From a virus: a stretch of 21,566 nucleotides of DNA. Positions 3,839 through 19,435 of the stretch are shown in pieces (positions within the stretch are counted from its first letter, which is position 1; every line of letters begins with the position of its first letter). Both the position numbers and the translations under genes were made by a program. Under the pieces are notes generated by a model, which was not told the origin of the DNA, ran no database searches, and worked only from the letters and a program-made list of their open reading frames with translations. The DNA lies in IMG/VR virus record IMGVR_UViG_3300020420_000655, positions 1 through 21,566 of that record; one strand, written 5' to 3'.

Positions 3839-4089
3839 TACTGTGCTTTATAAACTTCGTTTACTATTTTAGCTTTTAAAACTCTTTTATCTACTTCAAT
3901 ACCTAACTCCCTACCTTTTTCTTCTAACTGAACTTTAGTAAGTGCATTAAGTCTTGCTTTAGACATTTTTGTAGGTTTTTCTTTTACTGGTGGTTCACCA
4001 ACAATTTCATCTGCTGTATTTGCAGCTTTGTAAATTATTGCTATCACTATACCAGCAACACCTATTCCGATTAACCAATCTATAATCAT
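3838..4089 (-). CDS. Single-pass membrane protein with C-terminal HeH/SAP-like motif
   Basis: This encodes 83 aa. Residues 2-20 form one hydrophobic segment rich in Ile, Gly and Ala. A Pro/Lys-rich linker (about 30-42) leads to a helix-extended-loop-helix pattern at 47-80 (LNALTKVQLEEKGRELGI followed by KAKIVNEV). This resembles the HeH/LEM, SAP or Rho-N type of small helical domain that often binds nucleic acid. Its start overlaps the peroxiredoxin stop as ATGA with AGAGG upstream. It sits two genes before the lysozyme, so a holin or spanin-like role is possible, but the cytoplasmic HeH domain is not typical of one. Function is unknown. Confidence 0.75.
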   Translation of the reverse strand: MIIDWLIGIGVAGIVIAIIYKAANTADEIVGEPPVKEKPTKMSKARLNALTKVQLEEKGRELGIEVDKRVLKAKIVNEVYKAQ

Positions 4090-4634
4090 TCGTTTTCCTC
4101 TTTACTAATTAAATTCAAACCAAAATGTCTTCGAATTTCTTCTAAGAATATTTCTGGTTTACTTTTTTCATATGGGTCTGTTTGACAATTATCTTGTAGA
4201 TTAGGTTCAATGTTCATTAGTTCGACACTTCCATCGGATACTAACATTGCATATCTCCAAGACCTTAACCCAAAACCTAGATTTTCTTTTTTGACAAGAA
4301 GACCTAGTTGTCTTGCAAGTTCACCATTACCATCTGGTAAAGGTTTTACTTTTTCAATACCTTGTTGTTCGAACCATGCATTCATGACGAATGTATCGTT
4401 TACAGATGTGCAGTAAACTTCATCAACACCAGATTCTATGAACTGGTCATACATTTCTTCGAAGGTAGGTAATTGGAAGGTTGAACATGTTGGTGTGAAT
4501 GCTCCAGGCAATCCAAACACCACGATAGTCTTATCTTCCATTAGACTATCTAAACTGACCTCATCCCAGTCTCCATCTTTCCTTATTTGGAATTGGATGT
4601 TGTGAAGGTCGTTTAATTTTCCTTTGTTTAACAT
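4086..4634 (-). CDS. Peroxiredoxin, Prx5-like
   Basis: This is a thiol peroxidase reducing H2O2 or organic peroxides (182 aa). The Prx signature PxxxTxxC is intact at P43-GAF-T47-PT-C50, with C50 the peroxidatic cysteine. The strand VYCTSVND (73-80) and the segment RSWRYAMLVSDG with conserved arginines (124-134) are typical of the Prx5/AhpC-TSA superfamily. C75 and C150 are the other cysteines; C150, near the C-terminus, is a candidate resolving residue. The start has an AGGA site and a strong promoter (4670-4697) of its own. Together with the preceding hsp20 it forms a stress-protection pair. It is presumably host-derived and protects the infected cell. Confidence 0.92.
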   Translation of the reverse strand: MLNKGKLNDLHNIQFQIRKDGDWDEVSLDSLMEDKTIVVFGLPGAFTPTCSTFQLPTFEEMYDQFIESGVDEVYCTSVNDTFVMNAWFEQQGIEKVKPLPDGNGELARQLGLLVKKENLGFGLRSWRYAMLVSDGSVELMNIEPNLQDNCQTDPYEKSKPEIFLEEIRRHFGLNLISKEENE

Positions 4635-4669
4635 AATATAATCCTATAAAATATTTTTATACTGTTACC

Positions 4670-4697
4670 AGTATATCACGAGACTGGGATGTGTCAA
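4670..4697 (-). promoter_or_regulatory. Sigma70-type promoter for the peroxiredoxin-lysozyme operon
   Basis: TTGACA (4692-4697) and TATACT (4670-4675) are separated by 16 bases, the same architecture as the uvsX promoter. The -35 lies just after the hsp20 stop codon. The start site near 4663 gives a leader of roughly 30 bases with an AGGA site in it. Confidence 0.8.
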
Positions 4698-4701
4698 CCT
4701 T

Positions 4702-5205
4702 TTATTTACTATTAAATCCCCATCCATGTTCTGTTAAGAACTCTTTAGGTAATTTTCTATTCCCAATAGAAATCTTTTTAGGTTTCTTTTCTTCTGGGAT
4801 AATTTTAGTAATAGGAATTCCAAGAATACCATCTTGTATAGATGCAGAACCAACTTCTACATCATCTGCAAGAACAAATTTTCTTGACCATTTCCTAGCT
4901 GCAATACCAGTGTGAATTGCATGATTATTTGCAACTCTTTCTGGGTTTGGATTTGATTTATCACCAACGACTTTTAGTTCATTTTCTTGAACTGTAATGT
5001 CGATATGGTCTTTACCGAATCCAGCACACGCAATCTCGATAACGAAATGTTCGTCATCAATTTTTGTGATATTATAAGGTGGGTATGATTGACTGTTGTT
5101 TCTTTGAACATCATCTATTCTTCGAAAGAAGTCATCCACACCAATTGAGAATGGACTTGTCAGTTTTAACATTTCCTGTAAGTCCAGCGTAGTTAATTTT
5201 ACCAT
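4702..5205 (-). CDS. hsp20: Small heat-shock protein, Hsp20/IbpA family
   Basis: This is an ATP-independent holdase chaperone (167 aa). The alpha-crystallin domain spans about residues 40-138, with the opening YNITKIDDEHFVIEIACAGF, the core ITVQENELKVVG, the segment AARKWSRKFVLADDVEV and the closing hydrophobic strand ILGIPI in place of the usual I-x-I. The N-terminal arm (1-38) contains a Phe-rich stretch. A full AGGAGG ribosome site stands 5 bases before the ATG. Hsp20 genes are widespread in marine T4-like phages, particularly cyanophages. Upstream lies a 77-base leader with a small hairpin and only a weak promoter candidate, so it may also be read from the promoter at 5466-5493. Confidence 0.94.
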   Translation of the reverse strand: MVKLTTLDLQEMLKLTSPFSIGVDDFFRRIDDVQRNNSQSYPPYNITKIDDEHFVIEIACAGFGKDHIDITVQENELKVVGDKSNPNPERVANNHAIHTGIAARKWSRKFVLADDVEVGSASIQDGILGIPITKIIPEEKKPKKISIGNRKLPKEFLTEHGWGFNSK

Positions 5206-5465: not shown

Positions 5466-5493
5466 ATTATCTCATAAAACTCTTATTTGTCAA
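5466..5493 (-). promoter_or_regulatory. Sigma70-type promoter before the 58-aa gene and hsp20
   Basis: TTGACA (5488-5493) and GATAAT (5466-5471) are 16 bases apart. The -35 is in the last codons of the cyclase gene. The predicted start site falls next to the ATG at 5459. It marks a promoter change after the late curli/cyclase operon. Confidence 0.65.
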
Positions 5494-7351
5494 TAGAATA
5501 AATTGTAATCGGTTCTTCTTTACCTTTTACTTTAATTGTATCTACTTTTGTAAAGGATATGTCTGGACATTTCATGTAAGTAAACTCAGATATCAATACT
5601 TTGTTATCTAAGTATTTACCTCTTGCAGCTTGTGCTTCTAGTCTTGCACCTAGATTTACTGCATCTCCAATAACTGAGTAATCAAATCTTAATTCACTTC
5701 CCATGTTACCTACAATACAATCTCCTGTATTGATTCCTATGCCTACATTGATAGGTGGTAGTTTAAGTGGTTCAAGTTCTACATTTAACTGTTCTGTTGC
5801 ATCAATAATTTCTCTTGCAGATTCTACAGCTTTACTTGGATGGTCTTCACAATCTAGTGGAGCTCCCCAGAATGCCATAATACAGTCGCCCATATACTTG
5901 TCAATTGTTCCACCATATTTGAGAATGATTTTTGTTTGCATATCTAAGAATTTGTTTACCAGATTAACTAGTCCCTCTGGGTCATCTCTATTCTTATAAG
6001 CTTCACTTATGGGAGTAAATCCTACAATGTCAATGAACATGAAGGTCATTTCTTTTCTATCACCCCCCAGTTTTAATAACTCTGGGTTATTAGCAAGTTT
6101 GTCAACCATCTCTGGTGATAAGTATTTTTTAAATTGTCCTTTGATTTGTTCCTTTATCTTGTAGGTTACAAAGTATTTGTTGAAGGATGCGTGTCCAAAG
6201 ACTACAATCCCTGTAAGTGCAGAATACAATGCATCAAACAGTATTAAATATTCTATCCATAACCAGTATGATATTCCAACTGAAAGTCCTATTGTTCCGA
6301 TTGACAAAATACCAGATACATATGTTGGAGTTTGATACACCAAGAGTAATACTAAAAGACCTAGACCGATGACTAAAACTATTTCTACAAAGTCTAAAAG
6401 AAAATTATTCTGAATAGTTTCACCAGAGATGACAGTTTGTAGTAGGTTAGCTTGCACTTCATGAGGATACATGACACCTTTTGGTGTTGATACTGGATTA
6501 TTAAATCCTTCTGCTGTCATCCCCCAGATAAGTATTTTGTCTGAAATACCATCATGACCATGTAATGTTTTTTCAGTTAGGTCTGATGCAGATATTCTAT
6601 CAAAGTCATTCCAATATGTAATCATAACATCCGATGTAGATGTAGTTTCTATAGGTGGTTGTCGACCCATTCGTATCCATTCGATTCCAACTTCTGGTGT
6701 CACTCTGGTTTGATAATTAGGTTGGTCATAAAATGCACGAAGAGTTTCAAGTGCAACCGATGGATATATTTGGTCATTTGCAGATACTATAAGTGGTGCA
6801 GACCGAACAGTTCCATCAAAGTTTGGTGTATCTGGTAAAGGTGGAGTAGAAACTGTCACTCCTACACCATAAGTGTTATCTTGTAGTATTTTAATTGGTG
6901 CAGACATGCCAGAAAAACTCCAGATAGAATCTTTAATATCTCCACCACCAAAAACCGAAGTCTTTACATATGGTGCAGAACCAGTATCTTTTTGACTTGT
7001 AGGAGCTGCAGATAAAATACTTAATCTATTAACTAATCCTTCTGCAAACTTTTCATCTCCACCAAATCTATCTGGTTGATTGAATACTTGAGTAAATACA
7101 TGAGTATTGGAATAATGTGTTTCTAACATTATCTCAGAATAGATATTACGAGGCCATGGATATTGTCCATACTTATCTAATGACTTTTCATCTATATCGA
7201 CAAGTAAAATATTATCTACGAGTTGTGATTCTTTTTGTTGATGAAGAACATCAAAGTAAGACCATTTGATATTATCAACAAGGTAAGGTGACCATATTTT
7301 TAATCCTACCAACACTCCAAGTGTAAGTAGAACAGTTTTCCAATTATACAT
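5483..7351 (-). CDS. CHASE2-domain receptor adenylate cyclase (class III)
   Basis: This is a 622-aa membrane receptor enzyme predicted to make cAMP from ATP. Residues 1-20 form an N-terminal membrane anchor. Residues 30-310 form a CHASE2-type periplasmic sensor (IDEKSLDKYGQYPWPR early; PHEVQANLL near its end). Three hydrophobic segments follow at about 320-340, 345-368 and 370-388. The cyclase domain spans about 432-622. Metal-binding D441 (FIDIVGFT) and D489 (DKYMGD), the adenine-selecting pair K485 and D557, and the transition-state residues N566 and R570 are all present, so the domain appears active and ATP-specific rather than GTP-specific. It is the last gene of the curli-like operon and starts with a TAATG overlap with the 71-aa gene. 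CHASE2 cyclases are often neighbours of FecR-domain genes in bacteria, as here. The signal sensed is unknown. A full-length receptor cyclase is most unusual in a phage. Confidence 0.93.
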   Translation of the reverse strand: MYNWKTVLLTLGVLVGLKIWSPYLVDNIKWSYFDVLHQQKESQLVDNILLVDIDEKSLDKYGQYPWPRNIYSEIMLETHYSNTHVFTQVFNQPDRFGGDEKFAEGLVNRLSILSAAPTSQKDTGSAPYVKTSVFGGGDIKDSIWSFSGMSAPIKILQDNTYGVGVTVSTPPLPDTPNFDGTVRSAPLIVSANDQIYPSVALETLRAFYDQPNYQTRVTPEVGIEWIRMGRQPPIETTSTSDVMITYWNDFDRISASDLTEKTLHGHDGISDKILIWGMTAEGFNNPVSTPKGVMYPHEVQANLLQTVISGETIQNNFLLDFVEIVLVIGLGLLVLLLVYQTPTYVSGILSIGTIGLSVGISYWLWIEYLILFDALYSALTGIVVFGHASFNKYFVTYKIKEQIKGQFKKYLSPEMVDKLANNPELLKLGGDRKEMTFMFIDIVGFTPISEAYKNRDDPEGLVNLVNKFLDMQTKIILKYGGTIDKYMGDCIMAFWGAPLDCEDHPSKAVESAREIIDATEQLNVELEPLKLPPINVGIGINTGDCIVGNMGSELRFDYSVIGDAVNLGARLEAQAARGKYLDNKVLISEFTYMKCPDISFTKVDTIKVKGKEEPITIYSIDK

Positions 7352-7566
7352 TATACATTTAATTCATCTTCTAGTTCTATTATATAGTCTTTCATATCAA
7401 TCATCCATTCTTTGAGTCTAAGATATTGTTTGTTATGAAAATCTTTATATTTTTTATCAGTTGATAGGATTGACATCTTTTGATGATAATCCATAGTCTT
7501 GAGTACCAAGGCAATTGCATCTTGATAAGGCATTCTTACTGTGGTTGAAAATTCTCTTTTTGACAC
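7351..7566 (-). CDS. Hypothetical helical protein (71 aa), GTG start
   Basis: This encodes a soluble, mostly helical protein with several Met, Lys and Asp residues and an acidic C-terminus (IIELEDELNV). The first codon is GTG at 7566, chosen because a TAGGAG ribosome site overlapping the stop of the preceding curlin-like gene lies 9 bases upstream. An in-frame ATG at 7533 would shorten it by 11 residues. It ends in a TAATG overlap with the cyclase, so the two are probably co-translated. I do not recognise a family. Position suggests a partner or regulator of the cyclase, but this is inference only. Confidence 0.7.
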   Translation of the reverse strand: MSKREFSTTVRMPYQDAIALVLKTMDYHQKMSILSTDKKYKDFHNKQYLRLKEWMIDMKDYIIELEDELNV

Positions 7567-7578
7567 TCAAAATAGCTC

Positions 7579-8238
7579 CTAGTTTCCTTGGGTCACAGTT
7601 ATAGAACAACCACCAGTAGTATAACAAGACTGATTTAAAATATAACTTTGATTCGTACTACCTTGTTGTGTTAGATTCAATGTTACTGGTTGATTACCAT
7701 AAATTCTAATTTGTGAGTTATGATTTGCATCACCAGTTTGAGATACATTAGTATCTGAACCATGAGTACTTCCATAAAAATATGTTTGATTGTAATGACT
7801 TCCTTGTCCATCTTGCCAAACATCATGGTCAACATTACTTACATGAATATCTAAATTATGTGTATGAGTCCCATTTTGATAAATGTCCACATCATTATTA
7901 TTACCCCAGATATGTCTACCATAAGTTGCACCATTTAATTGCATGACTGCTTCATTATTATTTACACCATCAACATCACCACCCCATGACTTACCAGAAC
8001 CCCAATAAGATACCCAACCAATGTAGTTGTCATTTCCACTTTGTGATAAATTAAATACATTACCAGAATGGTCAAATGAAAATTCTATTGTATTTCCATA
8101 TCCCATTTGGTCAATGTTAAGTTCTAAATCGTCTCCACTACCAACCTGTTCTACATGAACATGGTTGTCATCTGTAGGGCCTGCATTTACAGACATACTG
8201 ACACTAATTAGACTGATTAATAATAATCCTCGAATCAT
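7579..8238 (-). CDS. Secreted curlin-repeat protein (second curlin-like subunit)
   Basis: This encodes 219 aa from the ATG at 8238. That start has AGGGG 6 bases upstream and gives a clean signal peptide (MIRGLLLISLISVSMSVNA, cleavage before GP); an ATG at 8244 sits too close to the site. The mature protein is rich in Asn, Gly, Gln, Ser, Thr and His and carries Q-x-G-x-x-N motifs (DQMGYGN, SQSGNDN, SQTGDAN, TQQGSTN), the signature of curlin amyloid repeats. The C-terminus has a Cys pair (CYTTGGC) and the curlin-like ending ITVTQGN. Repeat spacing is less regular than in CsgA. It would be exported by Sec and then through the CsgG pore encoded upstream. It overlaps the FecR gene by 35 bases. Confidence 0.82.
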   Translation of the reverse strand: MIRGLLLISLISVSMSVNAGPTDDNHVHVEQVGSGDDLELNIDQMGYGNTIEFSFDHSGNVFNLSQSGNDNYIGWVSYWGSGKSWGGDVDGVNNNEAVMQLNGATYGRHIWGNNNDVDIYQNGTHTHNLDIHVSNVDHDVWQDGQGSHYNQTYFYGSTHGSDTNVSQTGDANHNSQIRIYGNQPVTLNLTQQGSTNQSYILNQSCYTTGGCSITVTQGN

Positions 8239-9346
8239 CTCCATCCCCTATAAGTATTATACCTTCGTATCCTTCTACTATTGTTTCTAAGTATACATTT
8301 GAACCACTGTCAAATGCAATTTCTATAACTCCATTTACATCTCTAAAGAAAACTAATTTTTCATCTTCTATAAAGACATTGTATTGTGAGTCTTGGTTTA
8401 GTCCTTGTACTGCACCATCAACTCTAAAACTTCCGATACTACCACTTGCACCATCGGCTGATGAACCTCTTACTTTTTTATCTAATGCTTCTACAACATC
8501 AAGAACATCTCTAAGTAAATCAACATTCAATGCATCTATATCTAATGCAGAATATTCTAAATCTTCTTCGGTTTCTTTAAGTTCATCTGTTTCTAAATCA
8601 TTAAACTCTAAAAAATCTACTTCTAAAATTCCTTGGTCTTTATCTAAATCGTCCTGTGCTTGTTCTTGCACTGCAATTTTAACTTCCTGTGGTGGATTAA
8701 CGATAAACATATTGTTAATCATTGAAGGTGTAATATTCTGTATCGTTACTGCAACTGTTGGTGGTGTCTCAAAAGACGATACCATTGTTGCTTGATAAGG
8801 TTCATTTAGTATTTGTTCACCACCTTCATTTATTACCACTATCTCTCCAGATGCTTGTCCATCGTCATCTGGAAGCAAAACTACAAGTGACCTACCAAGT
8901 TCATCAATTGTAGTTGTAAAATCTGTTCCATTTATGGCTATCTGTGCAGTTGGCGTTGTGATATCAATATTTGCTTTGTTTATCTTTTTTCCATTACCAC
9001 TTGCAAATCTAGCTGTTCCTTGCACCATTCTAATTGACATTTTAGACAATGATGGATTAGGGTCATAATAAACTTCATCAATATACACTTGAGTATGTTC
9101 TGTCAATGCAAGTTCTTCTTTATCTAAGAACTCAATTAACATACGACCATTACCTGTTCGTGCTTCATCATATAACACAATATCTGAACCGATATCATGT
9201 GGTAAGGTTTCATTGTTTCTAACAATTCCACCTATACCTGTAGATTCGACTATATCACCTATGGAGTCAGCATAAACCGACCCCATAAAAGTGAACAGAC
9301 TAACTGTCGTTAGAAGAATCTTTTTGATTAATTGTGACTGTTGCAT
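8204..9346 (-). CDS. FecR-domain periplasmic protein
   Basis: This encodes 380 aa with a signal peptide at 1-26 (cleavage after VYA). A FecR-type beta domain spans about residues 30-150: GDIVESTGIGGIVRNN, ARTGNGRMLIEFLD, then an IRMVQGTARF segment and the characteristic ITTPTAQIAINGTDF near 129-143. The middle (about 225-295) is very acidic with helical LLRDVLDVVEAL. The C-terminal part (about 300-380) is predicted beta-rich. FecR proteins classically relay outer-membrane signals across the periplasm, but stand-alone FecR proteins of this type also occur beside CHASE2 cyclases. It lies between two curlin-like genes and overlaps both. Its own ribosome site is weak. It may couple the secreted fibre or CsgG to the cyclase sensor. 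Confidence 0.85.
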   Translation of the reverse strand: MQQSQLIKKILLTTVSLFTFMGSVYADSIGDIVESTGIGGIVRNNETLPHDIGSDIVLYDEARTGNGRMLIEFLDKEELALTEHTQVYIDEVYYDPNPSLSKMSIRMVQGTARFASGNGKKINKANIDITTPTAQIAINGTDFTTTIDELGRSLVVLLPDDDGQASGEIVVINEGGEQILNEPYQATMVSSFETPPTVAVTIQNITPSMINNMFIVNPPQEVKIAVQEQAQDDLDKDQGILEVDFLEFNDLETDELKETEEDLEYSALDIDALNVDLLRDVLDVVEALDKKVRGSSADGASGSIGSFRVDGAVQGLNQDSQYNVFIEDEKLVFFRDVNGVIEIAFDSGSNVYLETIVEGYEGIILIGDGDDSRIIINQSN

Positions 9347-10037
9347 TATCAGAATTCACATCTAAAACAATTGTCGAATTAGGTGTTGCACATCCATTAC
9401 CAGCACCAGAAACACATGTTCCAGATACTTGGTTAATATCAATATCCCCACCATCACCTGTCCAATCGACAGTTTGTGTGTGAGCACCATCTTTCATTAA
9501 TACATTTAGATTATTACTGTCACCAGTAATCTCCCAATTAAATGTGTCATCATCAGATTCAAAATCTAAATCAAATACATTTGAACTACCTAGGATAGTC
9601 ATATCTAAGTCTAGTCTTTCAGCACTAAACTGATATCCTTGGTCTAAATCCCATGTGTTTGAATCACCTGTGACTGTGATGTCAAATGTTGAATCATCAC
9701 TAGACCCAGTATAACCAATGTTCCAATCTAAAACATTTGAATCCCCTGTGAAAGACAAGTTGTAATCACTTGTATCTGCAATCAAAGGCCCAAAGATTTT
9801 ATTTTGGTTTCCAATTTGGTCAATGTCAATATTAAGCGTAGTACCTGTAATAACCATCTTGTCATCGTAAGCATTAGTTTGAGAAATTTTGTTTCCAAAT
9901 CCTACTTGGTCGATTAACAAAGTTAGTGTATCACCTTCTTGGTCTATCCTAATTTCGTTATCATCAGTCGCTTGTGCAAAAAGAATATTAGTCGACAAAA
10001 ATCCTACAAAGATTAAACTTATAAGTTTTTTATTCAT
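9300..10037 (-). CDS. Secreted curlin-repeat protein (first curlin-like subunit)
   Basis: This encodes 245 aa from the ATG at 10037, which has GAGGAG about 10 bases upstream and a good signal peptide (cleavage after LFA). The longer frame upstream has no such support. The mature chain is Asp/Asn/Thr-rich with a G-x-x-N repeat: GFGN, GNQN, GDSN, GDSN, GSSN, GDSN. Successive motifs are spaced 30, 22, 26, 26 and 22 residues apart, close to the 22-23-residue period of E. coli CsgA. Several are preceded by DQ as in curlin repeats. A C-terminal Cys pair (TCVSGAGNGC) and a final VTINQ strand parallel the second curlin-like protein. It overlaps csgG by 8 bases and should be a CsgG-exported fibre subunit. 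Confidence 0.82.
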   Translation of the reverse strand: MNKKLISLIFVGFLSTNILFAQATDDNEIRIDQEGDTLTLLIDQVGFGNKISQTNAYDDKMVITGTTLNIDIDQIGNQNKIFGPLIADTSDYNLSFTGDSNVLDWNIGYTGSSDDSTFDITVTGDSNTWDLDQGYQFSAERLDLDMTILGSSNVFDLDFESDDDTFNWEITGDSNNLNVLMKDGAHTQTVDWTGDGGDIDINQVSGTCVSGAGNGCATPNSTIVLDVNSDNATVTINQKDSSNDS

Positions 10038-11022
10038 TTTCGTTAAGCTCCTCGAAAGGTTCTGCATCACTATCAATAATCTCGTTTAGTTCATCGTACC
10101 ACTCATGTAGTTCGTTTTCACCATCCGATTGATGTGGATGTCTATGTCCTTTCTCTATTACCCAATAGCCCCTATCGTGACCTTGGTAAATTAATTCCAA
10201 CACTCCTGCTTCAATAGCACTTCGTGTTGCATATGTCACCGACTCATTATTACCCACTCCATCCTCTATCTCGACTAGTTGAGTTCCTTCTTCGATGAAT
10301 CTAAAAACATCGCCCCCAGAACCATAACTTAAAATAGTCTTACGACTTTGGACATTCAATAATACTTCACCTGTTAGAACTGAAACAGCTCTAATAGAAA
10401 CTGTAACTGCATCTTGACGATACTGTTTACTAAATCCTATACCTAATGTTCTTGCACCGCGTCCACCAGTTTTTAAATTGGTGTCATAGCCAATAATTCC
10501 ACCTTCTATTATCATTCCTGCGAATAGAAGTGGTGCAATTCCATTTGATTCTTCATTGTTTGCTTCTGCCCATTCTTTACGAGCAGAACGAATAATTTGT
10601 CTTTCACGAACTAAATTATCCAAACCTGTTCTTTCAACAACTCTGAACCATGTTCCACCACCTGCTGTTTTTAGTGCATCTATTAACATTGCACTAGAAC
10701 CTTGAGTCACAGCAGTAGAAAATGATGCATATGCATCTAATTGTTTTCTTTGACCTGTTAAATCATTGAAAGTATATACTGCAACAATAGGTTTTTCTTT
10801 TGCTGGTGGTAATTCTAGTAACTCTAAGTATGCTGGTAATCTTACTGCTGTAGGATGTTCAACACAAATATATTTCCTAGACAACTGTTTTTTTACAGCT
10901 GTATATAAATCTTTAGATAACCCTTCGTCCCATCTACTACAGTCCTGTGGATTTTCACTCCATTGTGGGAATGATGCACAACCTGTAAGAATCGAAAGGG
11001 ATAAAATTAAAAACCATTTCAT
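10030..11022 (-). CDS. csgG: CsgG-type outer-membrane curli secretion lipoprotein
   Basis: In E. coli CsgG forms a nonameric outer-membrane channel that exports curlin subunits. This protein (330 aa; E. coli 277) starts with a lipoprotein signal whose lipobox is LTGC (12-15). The CsgG domain spans about 63-290 and shows many hallmark stretches: NDLTGQRK, FSTAVTQGSSAMLIDAL, RFR-equivalent FRVVERTGLDNLVRERQIIR, EGGIIGYDTNLKTGGRGAR (174-191), SRKTILSYG, VFRFI and AIEAGV. In the constriction loop F101 aligns with E. coli F56, while Asn55 is replaced by Ser. There is an N-terminal insert with C28 and C53, and a His/Asp/Glu-rich C-terminal tail of about 40 residues. It is coupled to csgF by TAATG and precedes two curlin-like genes. 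Confidence 0.95.
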   Translation of the reverse strand: MKWFLILSLSILTGCASFPQWSENPQDCSRWDEGLSKDLYTAVKKQLSRKYICVEHPTAVRLPAYLELLELPPAKEKPIVAVYTFNDLTGQRKQLDAYASFSTAVTQGSSAMLIDALKTAGGGTWFRVVERTGLDNLVRERQIIRSARKEWAEANNEESNGIAPLLFAGMIIEGGIIGYDTNLKTGGRGARTLGIGFSKQYRQDAVTVSIRAVSVLTGEVLLNVQSRKTILSYGSGGDVFRFIEEGTQLVEIEDGVGNNESVTYATRSAIEAGVLELIYQGHDRGYWVIEKGHRHPHQSDGENELHEWYDELNEIIDSDAEPFEELNENE

Positions 11023-11567
11023 TAGCCATCCCCATCAGAACTACCACTACCATCGTCACCAAAATATCCAGTTCCGATTGGTATCTCAATAACTGTTGTA
11101 GAACCTTCTTGGTCTACAATGGTCATTCTAATAAACTCTGTACCATCTTCATTAGTAAGTACTTCGTATGTGACTGTTGAACCTTCTAAGACAAATGACC
11201 CAAATCTAACTGGGTTATCATTAGAGAACATAGATTCTACTAATTGTTTTGCCATCTGAGCATAAATTCTGCTTTCAAGGTTTCTAATAAATTTTGCAAG
11301 CGTTGTGTTGTCTGCTTCTCTCTCTGCAGCTTTTCTTGCAGCTTCTAAAGCATCTTCTATTGCTTTCTTTCTGCTATGTTCTTGATTCTCAATGGTAAGA
11401 TAATGTGCGCCTGTTCCTATACCACTAAAGCTTGGGTTTTTAAACTTATGTTTAATTTCGTCTGCACTTATATTTGGTGTTAGTGCAAGTAATGATAATA
11501 CAAAGAAGGTAACTAAAACACCTACTTCAAAATTATCACTTGTAAAAATCTTTTTTCTCTCTTTCAT
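11022..11567 (-). CDS. csgF: CsgF-like curli assembly factor
   Basis: CsgF binds the outer face of CsgG and couples secretion to fibre nucleation. This protein (181 aa) has a charged n-region, a hydrophobic segment at about 14-33 and a cleavage site after NISA (residue 35). The mature start contains FKNPSFSG (42-49), matching the FxNPxFGG motif by which CsgF inserts in the CsgG pore. The later part has a helical Ala/Glu-rich section (67-110) and a closing beta pair with ITV-type strands (GSTTVIEI) like CsgF. The C-terminus is Gly/Ser/Asp-rich and the helical part is more charged than in E. coli. It overlaps the preceding gene by 32 bases and shares the TAATG junction with csgG, as expected for a CsgG-CsgF pair. 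Confidence 0.87.
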   Translation of the reverse strand: MKERKKIFTSDNFEVGVLVTFFVLSLLALTPNISADEIKHKFKNPSFSGIGTGAHYLTIENQEHSRKKAIEDALEAARKAAEREADNTTLAKFIRNLESRIYAQMAKQLVESMFSNDNPVRFGSFVLEGSTVTYEVLTNEDGTEFIRMTIVDQEGSTTVIEIPIGTGYFGDDGSGSSDGDG

Positions 11568-11865
11568 TCTGTTCTTCCAATGCCAATATATTATTTTGGT
11601 CGTCTATAATCTTTTGTCTTTCACGATACTCTAAGACGACATTTACTTTTTCTTGAAGTCTAATTAAATCTTGGTCTAACATACGCACTTGGTCTATAAC
11701 CCTAATAAGTTGCATATGCATTTCTTCTATCTTTGGGTCTACCTCTTTTGAGATAAAGTTCCATATGTAATAGATGAAATATGCTAAACCTATAACAGCT
11801 GTAATTGCAAATCCAAACTCTGCAAGTACTTGGACGATAGTAAATTCTGGTGCTTGGACTTCCAT
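11536..11865 (-). CDS. Single-pass membrane coiled-coil protein (109 aa)
   Basis: A short N-terminal tail is followed by one membrane segment at about 16-38 rich in Ile, Ala and Tyr, then a long charged coiled coil (about 41-105). It has the same plan as the next gene upstream, so the two may be paralogues or partners. This topology (N-terminal membrane helix plus coiled coil) resembles BhlA/UviB-type holins, but the sequence gives no decisive motif. It starts with a TAATG junction and overlaps csgF by 32 bases, which ties it to the curli-like operon. It may be an inner-membrane component of the export system or a lysis protein. Confidence 0.8.
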   Translation of the reverse strand: MEVQAPEFTIVQVLAEFGFAITAVIGLAYFIYYIWNFISKEVDPKIEEMHMQLIRVIDQVRMLDQDLIRLQEKVNVVLEYRERQKIIDDQNNILALEEQNEREKKDFYK

Positions 11866-12161
11866 TAGTCTCTCCTAGAATCTATCTTTCCATCTTCGAC
11901 ATAGTTTTCTGCTCTTGCAACCCTTTCAATATCTGGTTTTAAATCTAAAGCACTTGATACTAACATATCAATTTTAATCAATTCATTGTTCATGGTTCTT
12001 GCTCTGTTCTCTAATGCCTTAGTAAAGTTCATCAAAGTGTCAACATTATCGACAACACCTTGTAAAAGTTGTTTCATTACTAGAAATATAAAGAACCCAG
12101 AAGCTAATGCACCACCGATAGGTAAACCGACTTCACCTATCAACACTAATATATCTTCCAT
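11865..12161 (-). CDS. Single-pass membrane coiled-coil protein (98 aa), first gene of the curli-like operon
   Basis: The membrane segment is at about 4-29 (Gly-rich, then FFIFLVM), followed by a helical coiled-coil region with an acidic, hydrophilic end. GGAG lies 6 bases before the ATG. It is the first gene after the TATAAATA late promoter. It shares its architecture with the next gene. No family is recognised; holin-like and secretion-accessory roles are both possible. The E. coli periplasmic adaptor CsgE has no obvious counterpart here, and these two proteins are not CsgE-like because they lack a signal peptide and CsgE motifs. Confidence 0.8.
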   Translation of the reverse strand: MEDILVLIGEVGLPIGGALASGFFIFLVMKQLLQGVVDNVDTLMNFTKALENRARTMNNELIKIDMLVSSALDLKPDIERVARAENYVEDGKIDSRRD

Positions 12162-12171
12162 TTCATTCTCC

Positions 12172-12193
12172 AGTTATACAACTATTTATAACT
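12172..12193. repeat. Inverted repeat spanning the late promoter
   Basis: Perfect 7-base arms AGTTATA (12172-12178) and TATAACT (12187-12193) flank 8 bases. The right arm overlaps the TATAAATA element. No T run follows, so it is not a convincing terminator. It may be an operator, or partly a by-product of an AT-rich promoter. Confidence 0.45.
12183..12190 (-). promoter_or_regulatory. T4-type late promoter for the curli/cyclase operon
   Basis: An exact TATAAATA lies on the minus strand in the 41-base gap between the IscA-type gene and the 98-aa membrane protein. This is the consensus -10 of T4 late promoters, read by RNA polymerase carrying gp55. The start site near 12176 gives a 15-base leader holding GGAG. 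It implies that the nine-gene curli-like operon is expressed late in infection. Confidence 0.8.
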
Positions 12194-12202
12194 AGAGAGG
12201 TC

Positions 12203-12562
12203 TTAAACTGGGTTAAAAGTCATAGAAACACCACATCCACACGATGCAGTGACATTTGGATTGTTAAATGTAAATTCCTCTCCTAATCCAGTTCTAACAA
12301 AATCTAAAACTAAATTTTCTAGGAAAGGTCTAGAGTTATTATCAATGTGAATAGAGAATTTACCATAATCTATTACTTGGTCAGAAGGTTCATTGGTGGT
12401 ATTGAAATCGAATATGTATTCATACCCATTACAACCACCACCAGTGACACCTAGTCTGATTTCAGAGAAACCCTTTTCCTCTGCTTTCTTAACCAATTGG
12501 ATAATTGCAGAGTCAGTTAACTCAATATTAACTGTCGGCTTTGAATATGCGATAGGCTCCAT
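12203..12562 (-). CDS. A-type iron-sulfur carrier, IscA/ErpA family (HesB-like)
   Basis: This encodes 119 aa from the ATG at 12562, chosen for AGGA 7 bases upstream; a longer frame to 12583 is possible. The core begins with IELTDSAIIQLVKKAEEKG. The three cluster-binding cysteines are present: C44 in GGGCNGY, and C108 and C110 in SCGCGVS near the C-terminus, preceded by the NNPN element. Such proteins bind and deliver Fe-S clusters or iron to apo-proteins. In a phage it is an auxiliary metabolic gene. The Fe(II)-dependent oxygenases of the modification cassette could create iron demand, though that link is speculative. It overlaps the 59-aa membrane gene by 35 bases. Confidence 0.93.
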   Translation of the reverse strand: MEPIAYSKPTVNIELTDSAIIQLVKKAEEKGFSEIRLGVTGGGCNGYEYIFDFNTTNEPSDQVIDYGKFSIHIDNNSRPFLENLVLDFVRTGLGEEFTFNNPNVTASCGCGVSMTFNPV

Positions 12563-12707
12563 AGACCAGTCCTGCCCAAGCAAGATACTTGACTATTGGT
12601 GCAAGTAAGATTGCTCCTAATGATATTCCGACTATAATAGCACCATCTAAAGATGATAACTCTCCTAGTCTCTCTTTCATGTATTCTTTAATGAAATTAA
12701 TATCCAT
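12528..12707 (-). CDS. Small membrane protein of 59 aa
   Basis: A frame from ATG 12707 to TAA 12528 has a GGGAG ribosome site 8 bases upstream that overlaps the stop of the 79-aa gene. The first 20 residues are charged and helical (MDINFIKEYMKERLGEL). Residues 23-54 are hydrophobic with Gly/Ala and Tyr (AIIVGISLGAILLAP, then KYLAWAGLVYGAYRIF), giving one long or two short membrane helices. It is short enough to be missed by length cut-offs. Its 3' end overlaps the IscA-type gene in another frame. Function is unknown. Confidence 0.72.
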   Translation of the reverse strand: MDINFIKEYMKERLGELSSLDGAIIVGISLGAILLAPIVKYLAWAGLVYGAYRIFKADS

Positions 12708-12719
12708 TTATAATACTCC

Positions 12720-12959
12720 CTATTTGAACTCAGATATATTACCAGAAGTATCTCTTGTAACTATATTAAGTTTCCCACTCTTTTGTCGTCTAATCAACTC
12801 ATTCTTTACTTTTTGTCTGAGTTTTGGTTTAGTGTTGTCATTATTATAACATTCTAATAACTCTTTCAATGATTGAGTTTTCATATAGTAATGTGTAGTG
12901 ATAACTTTTTTGCTACCTCTTTGCACTACTGATTGAGTTGGTTTATACTTTACTGGCAT
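12720..12959 (-). CDS. Hypothetical basic protein (79 aa)
   Basis: This is a small Lys/Arg-rich soluble protein with an N-terminal strand-like part (KPTQSVVQRGSKKVITTHYY) and a helical part around residues 28-60 (SLKELLECYNND, then KVKNELIRR). No family is recognised, though the basic character would suit nucleic-acid binding. The ATG at 12959 has no ribosome site and lies only 8 bases after an exact TATAAATA late element, so the mRNA may be leaderless. An internal ATG at 12884 also lacks a ribosome site. The next gene follows with its ribosome site over this stop. Confidence 0.7.
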   Translation of the reverse strand: MPVKYKPTQSVVQRGSKKVITTHYYMKTQSLKELLECYNNDNTKPKLRQKVKNELIRRQKSGKLNIVTRDTSGNISEFK

Positions 12960-12967
12960 AGTGTAGG

Positions 12968-12975
12968 TATTTATA
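12968..12975 (-). promoter_or_regulatory. T4-type late promoter element
   Basis: An exact TATAAATA on the minus strand lies 8 bases before the ATG of the 79-aa gene. Transcription starting 6-7 bases downstream would begin within a base or two of that ATG. It would carry the 79-aa gene, the 59-aa membrane gene and the IscA-type gene. Confidence 0.65.
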
Positions 12976-14216: not shown

Positions 14217-14611
14217 TTTTGAGATATTACTTTTTCTTTGAGGTTAGTAGTTGAAAAGGAATGTTCTCTACTAGTGTAGTAGATTTCATGAAGTCCTTTC
14301 CCTGTAAATTCTTTGTTTGCCCAGTCCTCTCCTATAAATCTTAAGTGGATGGGTTTTGTTGCTTCTAGTAAATCAAGTAAACTTTGTTCAGTGTCATAAG
14401 GTATAATCTCATCAACATACTTGATTGCATCCAATTGTATAAATCTTTCATATACAGATTGAATAGGTTGACTTTTTTCTTGTCTATCAATCGATGGGTC
14501 TGTTTGTAATCCTACAATAAGATAATCACAATTCTCTTTTGCTTCTTTCATCATTACTACATGTCCAGAATGTAATAAGTCGAATGCACCACATGTAAAT
14601 CCTACTTTCAT
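14213..14611 (-). CDS. Cytidylyltransferase-like nucleotidyltransferase (TagD/HldE-C type)
   Basis: This encodes 132 aa, the length of a single-domain HIGH-type nucleotidyltransferase. It has the opening VGFTCGAFDLLHSGH, whose HSGH (14-17) is the HxGH nucleotide-binding motif, and a C-terminal STT (120-122) matching the RTxGISTT element in a divergent form. The family activates glycerol-3-phosphate, sugar phosphates or similar compounds as CDP- or ADP-derivatives. Here it follows two glycosyltransferases with ATGA coupling, so it may supply an activated donor for decorating DNA, lipid or a surface glycan. The substrate cannot be read from sequence. It ends in an ATGA overlap with gp62. Confidence 0.88.
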   Translation of the reverse strand: MKVGFTCGAFDLLHSGHVVMMKEAKENCDYLIVGLQTDPSIDRQEKSQPIQSVYERFIQLDAIKYVDEIIPYDTEQSLLDLLEATKPIHLRFIGEDWANKEFTGKGLHEIYYTSREHSFSTTNLKEKVISQK

Positions 14612-15780
14612 AATACTATATCCATCATATCTTTAAAAACAAAATCAGAATCATAATAAGAATAAAAGTCTAAAGCATTCTTTCTATATTCATTTCTCAT
14701 ATCATTATCATTTGTAAGTTCTACTATTAGGTTTTTACATTCTTCCATATTATTTTCCGATAACCATATTGTCCCACTGTTATCGATATCTGTCAAGGGT
14801 TTATCGTAGTATCGATGAATACAAAGGTCTCCATATTCTTTTCTAAAAACTGGAACTGCCCCAACTGCAACTGGTTCTAAATGTGTAAACTCTAAAGACT
14901 TTGCCATATACTTTTCTCCTAGAAGACTCAACTGATATCCATAAGAAGATAAAGATAATCTTTCTAGTAATTCATCATTTACATATTGACCAAACACTGT
15001 AAATTTATCACCATACCTTTCTAGTAAATCTACTTCATTTACATCTGAGTTTATTTCATTGTAAAAGTCATATTGGTTTTTAAACTCTATAAAGACTGGA
15101 CTTCGTTCTATCCCTTCTAATGTAGTTAGATGACCAGCACCCTTTAAATACTCATCATGGAATCTAATCATCAAGTCATAACCTTTCCATCTTGAAGTTC
15201 TACCTATCCATTTATGATGATGTGCATCTTGTTCCTCAATTCCTTTCCAATACTTTTTGTAATTTGAAAATGATATTGCAGGCTGCATTAAGTGAATTGT
15301 TCTGTCTGCATCCAAATCAAAAAGATTTGGTGTGTTTACTATTTCTGCAAAATCACCAGTTTGAGAATGTGCAAAGATATAGTCTACCTTTTCATATGAT
15401 TCTTGTAATAAAACATTTCTTCTAAGTGATGATATGTTATGGTCATGTTGTATGGAAACCTTTTTAGTTTTTAAATCAAATAGTTTAGAAAAGTTTTCAA
15501 TGCATTCTTTACTATGATTAACAGATGGAAGAGAATTGAAAATTATTATATCTGATTCTTTGCATCCTTCATAAACCTCATCAAAATCATCACGACCAAA
15601 ATGAACATGAACTAAATTATGAAAAGTATGTGAATCATTTCTTGACCACTTCTTATCTTTAGATGCATAGACAGTTGTATCATGAGAGTTTTTAATTAAC
15701 CAATCTTCTAACTCAACGCAGTATTTGGTTACTCCACAACCCTCAACTCCTCTGCCCATTACTATTGCAATCTTAGACAT
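14608..15780 (-). CDS. GT-B fold glycosyltransferase, GT4-like
   Basis: This encodes 390 aa from the ATG at 15780, which gives a proper first Rossmann strand (MSKIAIVMGRGVEGCGVTKY); the frame extends 11 codons further into the upstream gene. The N-terminal domain continues with IIIFNSLPSV, the linker region contains IGRTSRWKGYD, and the donor-binding part has THLEPVAVGAVPVF, matching the E-x7-E/EPxxxGxPV region of GT4-type retaining transferases. It overlaps the GT8-like gene by 8 bases and the cytidylyltransferase by ATGA. In this context it may add sugar to an oxidised methylcytosine, but an acceptor in a glycan or protein is not excluded. Confidence 0.85.
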   Translation of the reverse strand: MSKIAIVMGRGVEGCGVTKYCVELEDWLIKNSHDTTVYASKDKKWSRNDSHTFHNLVHVHFGRDDFDEVYEGCKESDIIIFNSLPSVNHSKECIENFSKLFDLKTKKVSIQHDHNISSLRRNVLLQESYEKVDYIFAHSQTGDFAEIVNTPNLFDLDADRTIHLMQPAISFSNYKKYWKGIEEQDAHHHKWIGRTSRWKGYDLMIRFHDEYLKGAGHLTTLEGIERSPVFIEFKNQYDFYNEINSDVNEVDLLERYGDKFTVFGQYVNDELLERLSLSSYGYQLSLLGEKYMAKSLEFTHLEPVAVGAVPVFRKEYGDLCIHRYYDKPLTDIDNSGTIWLSENNMEECKNLIVELTNDNDMRNEYRKNALDFYSYYDSDFVFKDMMDIVL

Positions 15781-16423
15781 CGTAGTCACTCTCATTAAAT
15801 GTTTTTGTTCCACCAGATGTGTTTATGTGAGTTATGTATTTTCCTTTCTTTGACCAATGACCCCAATCATTTGAAAGAAGATTGTAGTTTCCATAATAGT
15901 TATTACACAAAATATTAAATAGTGATTGGTCATGTTGTGGTTGTGGTTTTTCTAATTCTTCTCTCCAGTGGTCTTTGGTATTTTCATAAAACTTTCTATC
16001 AAACAACATAGTTCCAGAACAAAAATAATTATAGTCTTCTCTAAGGTTAAATCTTTCTTTATCTCTTTGTTGTTTTTGAAGACCACTAGGTGTATTACTT
16101 TTATCTTGCATAGCAGAGAATACATCATATTCAAAAATGTTAGGACAATCTTCTCTTACTATTGCATCACTATCTAAGTAAAAAATTTTATCATATCCTT
16201 CTTTAAACAATTCGTATATGTATAACTTATGATATGCTGGAGAATATTCTTTTCCTAACCACTCATCACTTTTCAAACAAAAATAATCTGCTTCAGTAAA
16301 CTCTGCATATGCTAATGCTTTCTTAGATGAGAATTTATATAAATCTTCAACATAATGAAATACTTTTCTACCTTCTGACCTTCCACCATTTGGTGGTATT
16401 TGAACTTGAAAAACTAGGTTCAT
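15773..16423 (-). CDS. GT-A fold glycosyltransferase, GT8-like
   Basis: This encodes 216 aa. The metal-binding DxD is D84-S-D86 in KIFYLDSDAIV. It is followed by the CSGTMLFD element (135-142), the HDQSLFN segment (164-170) and a late HINTSGGTK (199-207), the order seen in GT8 (glycogenin and LPS galactosyl/glucosyltransferase) enzymes, which use UDP-sugars. It starts with an ATGA overlap with the TET-like gene and GGAG 8 bases upstream. It is the first transferase after the oxygenase, making it the best candidate to glycosylate the base that oxygenase produces. That substrate is inference. Confidence 0.85.
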   Translation of the reverse strand: MNLVFQVQIPPNGGRSEGRKVFHYVEDLYKFSSKKALAYAEFTEADYFCLKSDEWLGKEYSPAYHKLYIYELFKEGYDKIFYLDSDAIVREDCPNIFEYDVFSAMQDKSNTPSGLQKQQRDKERFNLREDYNYFCSGTMLFDRKFYENTKDHWREELEKPQPQHDQSLFNILCNNYYGNYNLLSNDWGHWSKKGKYITHINTSGGTKTFNESDYDV

Positions 16424-17421
16424 AGAAATGACTCCAAACTACCTTTCTCTTCATACTTACTTGCATGTTGACCAATAGGTTTTTCTGTTTTACCACCATA
16501 TCCTTTTGTTGCAACATCTGTTGAACAATATGCAACACATGATAATCTTATTCCATCACCTTCAATCTTGGTGACTCCATGTATCTCATTTGAATCTGCA
16601 ATCAATACATCACCATCATCTGCTTCAATGGCAACTCCATATCTTGGGAATACCAAGTATGCACCACCAAAGTCACCTAGTCTAAACACGCACATAGTAG
16701 TCATACCAAACTCTAGGTCTTTACCATCAACATGTGCCGACATCTTTGCAGTTCCTTCACTTGAATATCTATTTGCAGATAGAGTTGTTATAGGAGCTCC
16801 ACCCAAGTGATACTTCTCTTCAATACATTCATCTGCATATGTTCTTTGTAATTTCCAGATATCTGGACATCCTTTCTTAAGTGCTTGTTCATTGATAGTT
16901 GCAATCTGTTGCATCTTCTCCCACTTTTCTACATTAGATTTCTTTTCACACCAGTTTGATAATCCTATCATACCATTGAATCGACCTCTCTTATAACCAG
17001 CAAATACAGAATGAATTGCATTTGCCTCTGCAATACGATTGAACTCTCCATTCTTTTTAAGTGGATAGTAAGAGTTTGGTGTTCTTAAAACATAATCTTT
17101 ACCTTCAACCAATCCTTTCTTTTTCATTTCTTCATGGTCAATAGGGCCAGATGCATTTGCTCTCATAGTTGATACATCATCTATAGAATACAATGTATCT
17201 TTTACTTCGTTGTAGGTATCACCTGTATATGCATTCTTTACGATACATGCAAGTAATGGTTTATCAAATAATGAACCACTTGGTTTATATATTCTTATGA
17301 TATCATCTTCGACACCAATAGATGATACAACATCATCATACGATGTTTCATCTAACCACTTACCATTAAACTGGTCGTGTGTTTCTTTTTTCCCTAAGTC
17401 TTTTTTTGCAGTGAATTCCAT
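16420..17421 (-). CDS. TET/JBP-like 2OG-Fe(II) dioxygenase (5-methylcytosine oxidase candidate)
   Basis: This encodes 333 aa, a length typical of phage TET-like proteins. The double-stranded beta-helix core lies in the C-terminal half: HxD at H230-V-D232, a FGGAYLVFP strand (251-259), GDVLIADSNEIHGV with distal H281, and the 2OG-binding R292 in IRLSCVAYC. The N-terminal 200 residues contain a PLKKNGEFNR region and a helical stretch with several Trp and Cys, as expected of TET/JBP relatives rather than prolyl hydroxylases. It overlaps the C5-methyltransferase gene by 28 bases. Phage TET enzymes that oxidise 5mC made by a co-encoded methyltransferase have been described, and this pairing reproduces that layout. 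The start lacks a clear ribosome site and is probably coupled. Confidence 0.85.
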   Translation of the reverse strand: MEFTAKKDLGKKETHDQFNGKWLDETSYDDVVSSIGVEDDIIRIYKPSGSLFDKPLLACIVKNAYTGDTYNEVKDTLYSIDDVSTMRANASGPIDHEEMKKKGLVEGKDYVLRTPNSYYPLKKNGEFNRIAEANAIHSVFAGYKRGRFNGMIGLSNWCEKKSNVEKWEKMQQIATINEQALKKGCPDIWKLQRTYADECIEEKYHLGGAPITTLSANRYSSEGTAKMSAHVDGKDLEFGMTTMCVFRLGDFGGAYLVFPRYGVAIEADDGDVLIADSNEIHGVTKIEGDGIRLSCVAYCSTDVATKGYGGKTEKPIGQHASKYEEKGSLESFL

Positions 17422-18659
17422 GGTTCTAATACCTGTTGTTTAATTTGCTCTACTAGGTAATGCAAACATAATGGTGCAACCATTAATCCTATTCTTGCAC
17501 CTTTGTCATTATAATCTCCTGTCATCTTATAATCATTTGGTAATGTCATAAGTCTGACCATTTCTTTTGGTGTGTATATTCTTTTACCACTATAATAAAA
17601 ATGATTACCACCCATAAACTTTGGTTGACATCCTTGTTCAGTTAAAGAATGTGCTGGAAGAAATTTAGGAACAATCCTTGACATGTAGTAGGAATGTTTT
17701 TCGTCTTCTGGTTTTAAGTGTCCATTTTTAATTTGTTCTTGAAACCAAGGTTTAACAATATCATCACCTATAGATATATAGGGCCTATTTTCAAGTCTTT
17801 TCATAACTGGTTCTAATCCTTCACATGGGCCACAATGTGCATAATTTGGGTCTGGATGTTTTTCAAATCCAGTTATCCAATGTGCTTTAGATGATTTTAA
17901 CATTTCACCCTCAAGATATTCTGCATCTTTTTGATTCTCTTCATCGTCTACTAGGTCATCTATTGCTTCTCCGATTGATGTTCTTTCACTTGTAGTCTCT
18001 GGAAACAATCCACTCAGACACATAAAAGGTAATCCTATTGCATCTAATACATCATCCCTTACTGCAACTATAAACACTCGTTCCCTTTTTTGAGGAACTC
18101 CATGTTCATGTCCCTTCATAATCTTCCATGTAACTGAGTATCCTATCTTTTCAAAGTCTACTATCATCTTGTTTAGATGGTCTCTTGCATAATCCATGGA
18201 AAGACCTTTTACATTTTCACATACAATAACTTTAGGCATGACTTCTTCTGCAATTCTAATCATTTCCCATGTAAGGTCTTCAATGTTTTGTTGTTTCATT
18301 CCATATGCAACTTTTTCTTTGTTCCATCCTTCTCTTTTAGAACCAGCCATAGAAAATGGTGGACATGGTGGAGAACCATCCATAATATCAAGTTCACCTT
18401 TTTGTAATCCTGTCATTTCTAAAATATCTTTACCACTGACCTCTTTTATATCTTTACATTCATGAACTGTGTTTGGAAAGTTTGCAAGATAAGTATCAAC
18501 ATGTATTTGTTGAAACTCATTCATATACTTTACATCACCACCAGAAAGTTTATATGCACATGATGAACCACCACCGCCTGCAAAAAAAGTAATGTAATTA
18601 AACTCTTTTCTTGCAGAGTTTTTATGTAAATCATCTAATGTGTATTGAAAATAACTCAT
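17394..18659 (-). CDS. DNA (cytosine-5-) methyltransferase
   Basis: This encodes 421 aa from the ATG at 18659, chosen because AGGAG lies 5 bases upstream and the ATG overlaps the preceding stop as ATGA. Motif I is FFAGGGGSS (25-33). Motif IV GSPPCPPFS contains the catalytic C99. Motif VI ENVKG (148-152) and motif VIII QKRERVFIVA (190-199) are intact. Motif X reads RIGLMVAP where the canonical form is QIGNxVPP, so the Asn and one Pro are replaced. The target-recognition region lies about 230-345. Here it would install 5mC as substrate for the adjacent TET-like oxygenase rather than act as a restriction-evasion enzyme alone. No cognate endonuclease is nearby. The target sequence is unknown. Confidence 0.94.
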   Translation of the reverse strand: MSYFQYTLDDLHKNSARKEFNYITFFAGGGGSSCAYKLSGGDVKYMNEFQQIHVDTYLANFPNTVHECKDIKEVSGKDILEMTGLQKGELDIMDGSPPCPPFSMAGSKREGWNKEKVAYGMKQQNIEDLTWEMIRIAEEVMPKVIVCENVKGLSMDYARDHLNKMIVDFEKIGYSVTWKIMKGHEHGVPQKRERVFIVAVRDDVLDAIGLPFMCLSGLFPETTSERTSIGEAIDDLVDDEENQKDAEYLEGEMLKSSKAHWITGFEKHPDPNYAHCGPCEGLEPVMKRLENRPYISIGDDIVKPWFQEQIKNGHLKPEDEKHSYYMSRIVPKFLPAHSLTEQGCQPKFMGGNHFYYSGKRIYTPKEMVRLMTLPNDYKMTGDYNDKGARIGLMVAPLCLHYLVEQIKQQVLEPWNSLQKKT

Positions 18660-19435
18660 TGTTCTCCTTTCCATAAATCTGGAAATGGTATTGCTTGATA
18701 CATTTGCCCATCAAGTCCCCATTCAAAATCTATATGTTTTTGTTCAGAAAAATAAATAGATTCTGGAAAAATATCAAATGCAACTGTTACTCTTGGTTTA
18801 TCTCCTGTCCAAGGAGACGATGCATGTTCAAATCCACTAGAAGAATATATCAACATATCATCATAATCTTCATGGACAATCCACTCACTCTCTGGTTGTT
18901 CTGGCCCTATTCTATAAGTTGTTGTAGATGGTTTTACATTTGCACAATAGAATCCATGGTAGATGTGTGGATGCATATCTTCAATGTGTTTATGAAAAGG
19001 TATATGGTCGTATCCTTTATCATTTTCTCTTTTTGTATAAACATTAAACCATCCATGTATATAATATGATTCACCAGATTCTTTAACCTGTGAATTACTA
19101 TAAAAGAAACGATTTAGTTTCCAGTAAATATCTGAAAAAGGTCTTAGTCCAAATGTAAAAGGATTATAGGTATAAAAGTCTTGTCTTTCTTTTGTGTCTA
19201 AATCAAATTGATGCTCTTTTTCTTCTTTAGATAAATCTGCACCTTCTTTAGATGCACGAACATATCCACGAAGATTATTACTAAATTGATTTGGTATTGC
19301 AATTCCATCCTCATCGTGTGCAAAGAATGGATGATTTTCGTGTTCAATACACCAATCAGTAATAAATTCATAATCTATCCCACAATCCTTTTGGATAAAA
19401 AAATCAGAATTCTTGAGTGTTACTTCTGTCTTCAT
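18656..19435 (-). CDS. Second 2OG-Fe(II) oxygenase (phage hydroxylase family)
   Basis: This encodes 259 aa. A likely jelly-roll core occupies about 120-225: the histidine-rich HIPFHKHIEDMHPHIYHGF (144-162) containing the probable H150-x-E152 iron ligands, a CANV strand, then SSSGFEHASSPW with distal H204 and PRVTVAFDIF with R215 for 2-oxoglutarate. This H-x-D/E...H...R arrangement recalls the many 2OG-Fe(II) oxygenases of marine T4-like phages, which have mostly unknown targets. It lies directly before the C5-methyltransferase with ATGA coupling. It could act on the modified base, on a protein residue or on a sugar donor. It overlaps the small membrane gene by 32 bases. Confidence 0.75.
   Translation of the reverse strand: MKTEVTLKNSDFFIQKDCGIDYEFITDWCIEHENHPFFAHDEDGIAIPNQFSNNLRGYVRASKEGADLSKEEKEHQFDLDTKERQDFYTYNPFTFGLRPFSDIYWKLNRFFYSNSQVKESGESYYIHGWFNVYTKRENDKGYDHIPFHKHIEDMHPHIYHGFYCANVKPSTTTYRIGPEQPESEWIVHEDYDDMLIYSSSGFEHASSPWTGDKPRVTVAFDIFPESIYFSEQKHIDFEWGLDGQMYQAIPFPDLWKGEQ

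Follow-up and report, generated by a model that had tools for sequence, protein, structure and literature searches.

The DNA analysed here raises the question of why a marine phage should carry genes for curli-type secretion together with those for a FecR-domain protein and an adenylate cyclase, and what these genes could do in an infected cell. The window, by which we mean the whole stretch of 21,566 nucleotides analysed, is a 21.6 kb IMG/VR record of a T4-like marine phage with a GC content of 0.33, and besides the curli module it encodes a family-B DNA polymerase, Hsp20, peroxiredoxin and phage lysozyme. Identity of the polymerase to those of Synechococcus phages and of the Methylophilales phage Melnitz is about 47%. 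Known hosts of phages with related modules are SAR11 (HTVC008M) and OM43 (Melnitz).

A curli cluster in pelagimyophages was described earlier (Zaragoza-Solas et al., 2020; PMC7029224), and the ordered genes for CsgF, CsgG, CsgA/B, FecR, a second CsgA/B and adenylate cyclase have been reported from podo- and myo-type pelagiphages (Wittmers et al., 2022; PMC9599517), where exporter, fibres, FecR and cyclase were presented as one module, preceded by one or two genes labelled as histidine kinases. This module is widespread in GOV2.0 and its viral genes are expressed in metatranscriptomes (PMC9599517). The deposited records of the Pelagibacter phage HTVC008M and of Melnitz show the order coil-coil-CsgF-CsgG-curlin-FecR-curlin-cyclase. 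The suggestion in an earlier note on this DNA that the complete unit of exporter, fibres, FecR and cyclase is novel is therefore rejected, based upon this literature and these records. Aggregation, superinfection block, surface change and release have also been put forward previously, as proposals, for its role (PMC7029224, PMC9599517).

Gene content and spread of the module

The nine tightly overlapping genes claimed for this region were all found as ORFs on one strand, spanning positions 5483-12161, with overlaps of 1-47 bases and a single 12-base gap (Table 1). The matches to the Pfam models for CsgG, CsgF, FecR, CHASE2 and Guanylate_cyc all exceeded their cut-offs, which upholds the curli-type secretion assignments, and the module is almost certainly of the pelagiphage curli (type VIII secretion) type. 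A search of the window against Rfam gave zero matches.

Table 1. Features of the curli module and its putative promoter in the window.
Feature	Coordinates	Strand	Characteristics
T4-type late promoter -10 element, TATAAATA	12183..12190	-	Position conserved across relatives
Coil A, 98-aa single-span membrane protein with coiled-coil	11865..12161	-	phrog_18771 7.5e-24
Coil B, 109-aa single-span membrane protein with coiled-coil	11536..11865	-	phrog_18771 3.1e-24
CsgF homologue	11022..11567	-	PF10614 8.8e-14; signal peptide; FKNPSFSGxG CsgG-binding-type segment
CsgG lipoprotein pore	10030..11022	-	PF03783 9.7e-54
Curlin-repeat protein 1	9300..10037	-	Signal peptide; beta-rich; Curlin_rpt in 30/31 family members
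Exported FecR-domain protein with C-terminal curlin-like strand (...IIINQSN)	8204..9346	-	PF04773 5e-09
Curlin-repeat protein 2	7579..8244	-	Signal peptide; PF07012 1.5e-4, above cut-off
71-aa protein	7351..7566	-	No family match; close relatives only
CHASE2 receptor class III adenylate cyclase	5483..7351	-	PF05226 1.7e-28; PF00211 1.5e-20

At least 436 relatives of CsgG were found in IMG/VR in one scan. The loci examined comprised 80 fetched from IMG/VR, the two isolates HTVC008M and Melnitz, and the window. All eight core genes were complete in 40 of them and the cyclase was present in every locus with ample room, while the flanks differed among the phage loci; the gene for the 71-aa protein is represented by 17 ORFs, restricted to close relatives of the window. 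Immediately upstream of the operon lies a gene for an A-type iron-sulphur cluster biosynthesis protein (12203-12583), whose homologues adjoin or sit within the module in other loci (L031, L059, L067 and L072). Downstream of the cyclase gene are those for peroxiredoxin and Hsp20 (4086-5205), and an Hsp20 gene also comes after the module in many relatives. Elsewhere in the window (14608-18674), genes for a T4-type DNA alpha-glucosyltransferase, a GT8 glycosyltransferase, a Tet/JBP oxygenase and a C5 cytosine methylase stand in tandem, which suggests that cytosine in the phage DNA is methylated, oxidised and glucosylated.

The components of the exporter are well conserved. A lipobox is present in all 83 CsgG relatives and the sequence SFSTAVTQ or DFSTAVTQ in 81 of them, and 75 of the 81 CsgF relatives carry an N-terminal segment of the F-x-NP-x-F type, by which CsgF is predicted to bind CsgG. 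These characteristics support a putative outer-membrane pore formed by CsgG and topped by CsgF. The periplasmic gate CsgE, claimed to be absent by the earlier note, was indeed not found in the window or in the complete HTVC008M and Melnitz genomes, nor in three large contigs and two bacterial genomes (L089 and L090) discussed below; CsgE has been described as non-essential (PMC7029224). A further CsgG relative, 44% identical to that of the window, is present in the 1.5 kb INPHARED record OR851715.1, which is unannotated and labelled Salmonella phage S.Kent 1-2-1, possibly in error.

Curlin repeats had been claimed for both of the curlin-like proteins. For protein 2 the match to the Curlin_rpt model is above the cut-off, whereas protein 1 of the window falls slightly below it (E 0.0019-0.0021) and is recognized through its family, where the best E-value is 8.6e-6. 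The GxxN-type repeats exceed chance in protein 1 (p 0.006) but not clearly in protein 2 (p 0.1). Strand endings of the form hydrophobic-x-hydrophobic-x-Q scored above all 1000 composition shuffles in both proteins, and a comparable C-terminal strand is present in all 78 first curlin proteins and in 54 of the 63 second ones. The two proteins also matched the NCBIfam CsgA model (2.9e-6 and 2.1e-4), at levels well short of its equivalog cut-off. The AlphaFold2 model of protein 1, for which the ATG at 10037 is a more likely start than the TTG at 10076, is almost all beta (pLDDT 76.9), and a fold search of the PDB with it gave no significant match. Weak matches to CsgH in this family (7/31, best 0.008) were treated as chance. 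Overall, the signal peptides and repeats support the two proteins as the predicted fibre subunits, and curlin fibres are probably made.

The FecR protein, the cyclase and their bacterial counterparts

The FecR protein consists of a signal-peptide-like N-terminus, a FecR domain (residues 61-153), an acidic linker and a curlin-type C-terminal strand, with no internal span above the hydropathy threshold. The model of its FecR domain resembles the C-terminal cell-surface signalling domain of PupR (6ovk, E 9.1e-4); the tail was modelled at low confidence. The arrangement of anti-sigma FecR proteins, in which a single span joins a cytoplasmic anti-sigma domain to a periplasmic FecR domain, was not observed, and a role as an iron or anti-sigma regulator was rejected because the architecture does not match, the protein looks wholly exported and the N-terminal anti-sigma part is missing. 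The tail ends, as curlin repeats do, in hydrophobic-x-hydrophobic-x-Q followed by zero to four residues. This motif is present in all 77 curli-linked FecR proteins, viz. 69/69 from phages and 8/8 from the genome collection (two of them bacterial), and in none of 79 FecR controls from loci without curli or of 395 unrelated phage ORFs. The split between curli-linked and control FecR proteins is complete, although the counts overstate its independence, since the pattern was written post hoc, after inspection of the sequences, and the controls are more distant homologues.

The transmembrane CHASE2 cyclase has what is predicted to be a complete active site. The two metal-binding Asp, the substrate-binding Lys and Ser/Thr, and the transition-state Asn and Arg of class III enzymes are all present, and among the phage relatives D441, K485, D489 and R570 are found in 44/44, N566 in 43/44 and S559 in 42/44. 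No cNMP-binding domain was detected in eight phage records, of which two are complete genomes, or in 95 of 99 Pelagibacter-family genomes, some of which are incomplete MAGs. Hence, if the host belongs to SAR11, the cAMP would be left without an evident receptor, and the published CRP/CsgD-like route is unlikely in such a host. The target of cAMP may lie outside the known receptors, or the host of the window phage may be a different one.

According to a published statement, FecR and cyclase do not occur within bacterial T8SS operons (PMC9599517). Two freshwater alphaproteobacterial contigs, binned as Caulobacteraceae (L089:5110-11130 and L090:5073-11130), are a counterexample to this, as both carry CsgF-CsgG-curlin-curlin-FecR-CHASE2 cyclase. 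In midpoint-rooted trees of CsgG and of the cyclase, their sequences join those of the phages, to the exclusion of the other bacteria sampled, with 100/100 support, and no cellular relatives closer to the phage module were found in this analysis. The neighbours of the L089 operon are genes for an amidohydrolase, an acyl-CoA dehydrogenase, and B12-binding and DsbA-like proteins, at a GC content of 0.54, and both genomes encode several cNMP-binding domains. No FecR and cyclase genes were seen beside curli in the fetched flanks, some limited by contig ends, of 16 other alphaproteobacterial CsgF loci, and on this basis their linkage to curli as a general bacterial trait was rejected. Bacterial FecR genes also lie near CHASE2 cyclases where curli genes are absent (e.g., L116, L133, L153, L162, L205 and L228). 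In a contig from a Neomarinimicrobiota MAG (L088:8-4592), a gene for a DNA cytosine methylase-like protein stands between the curlin and FecR genes and that for the CHASE2 cyclase; this is the module with an inserted gene, and the contig is apparently of phage origin, judging from our reading of its helicase- and nuclease-like genes.

Predicted late expression and alternative readings

The earlier note had pointed to an exact TATAAATA before the operon and to late expression. The element is present there, but it is not significant by count alone (two in the window versus 3.4 expected), and its conserved position was used in place of its number. In 55 of 78 loci, which are related and thus not independent, the first gene has an exact TATAAATA close by, and the remainder mostly have NATAAATA, with one mismatch; the background rate is 2.5% of random 160-nt windows. 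Within the same loci the contrast between genes is clear: it occurs zero or one time each near the CsgF, CsgG, coil B, first curlin, FecR and cyclase genes and in 5 of 67 cases near the second curlin gene. The placement of this T4-type late element at the operon start upholds the claim of late expression, its simplest reading is a single late transcript, and late co-transcription of the module genes is predicted with considerable confidence. A second exact copy (12968-12975), directly upstream of a small ORF (12720-12959), is perhaps a further late promoter.

The first two genes of the operon encode paralogues, both matching phrog_18771, which across relatives are 83-122 aa long and combine a single hydrophobic span with a long, charged coiled-coil, with a charge distribution that suggests a cytoplasmic C-terminus. 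Where a phage locus extends far enough, they are nearly always present. HTVC008M and Melnitz are the only INPHARED phages in which they were found, and the L089/L090 operon lacks them. For 36 members, none of the 25 families listed, out of 30 Pfam families matched at E<=1, was a kinase domain (HisKA or HATPase). Based upon this and upon their size, the published label of histidine kinase was rejected.

These small proteins bear upon the proposal, made for Melnitz (PMC9004378), that the CsgG-CsgF pore has become a device for lysis or for release that resembles a pinholin or secretin, with the other genes timing it. Their size is holin-like, with weak YvrJ matches in 7/36 members (best E 0.044), the operon follows a late promoter, and 1.8 kb downstream from the cyclase there is a phage lysozyme gene. 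However, the inner membrane is where the timing of lysis is normally decided, whereas CsgG works at the outer one, and the proposal leaves unexplained both the pair of conserved, exported curlin-repeat proteins and the FecR protein with its curlin-type tail. Further, the Melnitz paper (PMC9004378) assumed that curlin genes were absent, but they are annotated in Melnitz's own record, and we regard such a device as unlikely.

Equally improbable, in our assessment, is that the fibres or the pore defend the infected cell from other phages through changes to its surface, which was proposed in PMC9599517; PMC7029224 proposed surface change in a general sense. The late promoter is awkward for this reading, and aggregation or release agrees better with late timing than superinfection exclusion does. 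Exclusion usually requires early expression, as in T4. Lastly, that nutrients or siderophores enter through an ungated CsgG pore while FecR senses iron, as was also proposed (PMC9599517) and as the failure to find CsgE would allow, is very improbable for a FecR protein that looks wholly exported, lacks the N-terminal anti-sigma part of true FecR, has a curlin-like tail, and has no TonB-dependent receptor or sigma factor noticed adjoining its gene.

Proposed function and comparison with known systems

The best model, to which we give slight preference overall, is that the module exports fibres late in infection and that its FecR protein informs the cyclase of the state of the fibre. The module would be transcribed as one late operon, and CsgG:CsgF would let out the curlin subunits, which would then assemble into polymers on the infected cell at a late stage. 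By its curlin-like tail the FecR protein would enter the fibre, or a pool of unexported subunits, and its FecR domain would be presented to the periplasmic CHASE2 domain, so that the cyclase output reports the state of fibre or export. The two phage-only coil proteins may act as accessory factors at the inner membrane. The most plausible use of the fibres would be to bind the infected cell to its neighbours and to new virions at about the time of lysis.

The best-supported parts of this model are the predicted export through CsgG-CsgF, which rests on homology, and the putative link from fibre state to cyclase through FecR, which rests on the tail motif and gene pairing. The model is favoured by the domain matches, the conserved gene order and late promoter, the split in the FecR tail motif, the bacterial FecR/CHASE2 pairings in loci without curli, the pairing of FecR with a CHASE2 kinase in Burkholderia (PMC5192318), and the expression in metatranscriptomes (PMC9599517). 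It is weakened by the lack of clumping in Melnitz cultures (PMC9004378), the failure to find CsgE, the non-significant fold search for curlin protein 1, the missing cNMP-binding domains, the post hoc definition of the tail motif and the low-confidence model of the FecR tail. The coupling of FecR to the cyclase appears evenly balanced, and a benefit from aggregation is tentative. Similarly speculative is a more specific version, in which the FecR tail lies within or caps the fibre while its domain signals to the cyclase, forming a feedback circuit shared with some alphaproteobacteria.

With these phages a complete system for amyloid export reaches streamlined ocean bacteria, hosts that reportedly have none, and if it works, the module alters how dispersed cells and virions meet. 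With a curlin-tailed FecR beside a CHASE2 cyclase, in bacteria as well as phages, the reason why these operons include FecR and cyclase becomes directly testable, and there is a lead on what CHASE2 domains sense.

The enterobacterial curli system (csgBAC/csgDEFG) shares CsgG, CsgF and curlin repeats with the window, but is distant in sequence, and the window differs in having FecR and a CHASE2 cyclase and in that CsgE was not found. In the Burkholderia biofilm operon (BiofilmReg), the gene for an exported LysM-FecR protein likewise adjoins that for a CHASE2 receptor (PMC5192318); the link to biofilm is that of Burkholderia, where a histidine kinase and LysM take the place of the cyclase and curlin tail and no curli genes are described. 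The L089/L090 operon shares six of the eight core genes and the curlin-type FecR tail with the phage module, but it lacks the coiled-coil proteins, has both curlin genes before FecR and stands among bacterial metabolic genes. The closest system is the published pelagiphage T8SS/curli module (PMC9599517; HTVC008M; Melnitz), with the same genes in the same order and homologous cyclase, FecR, CsgG and CsgF, to which the window adds the 71-aa gene before the cyclase. The pair of small proteins does not match the histidine kinase label given to them there. The original observation was read correctly for a system already described, and it is refined here by the conservation of the promoter, the coil proteins that show no kinase domain among the Pfam families listed, the FecR tail, the bacterial operon and the gap in cNMP-binding domains.
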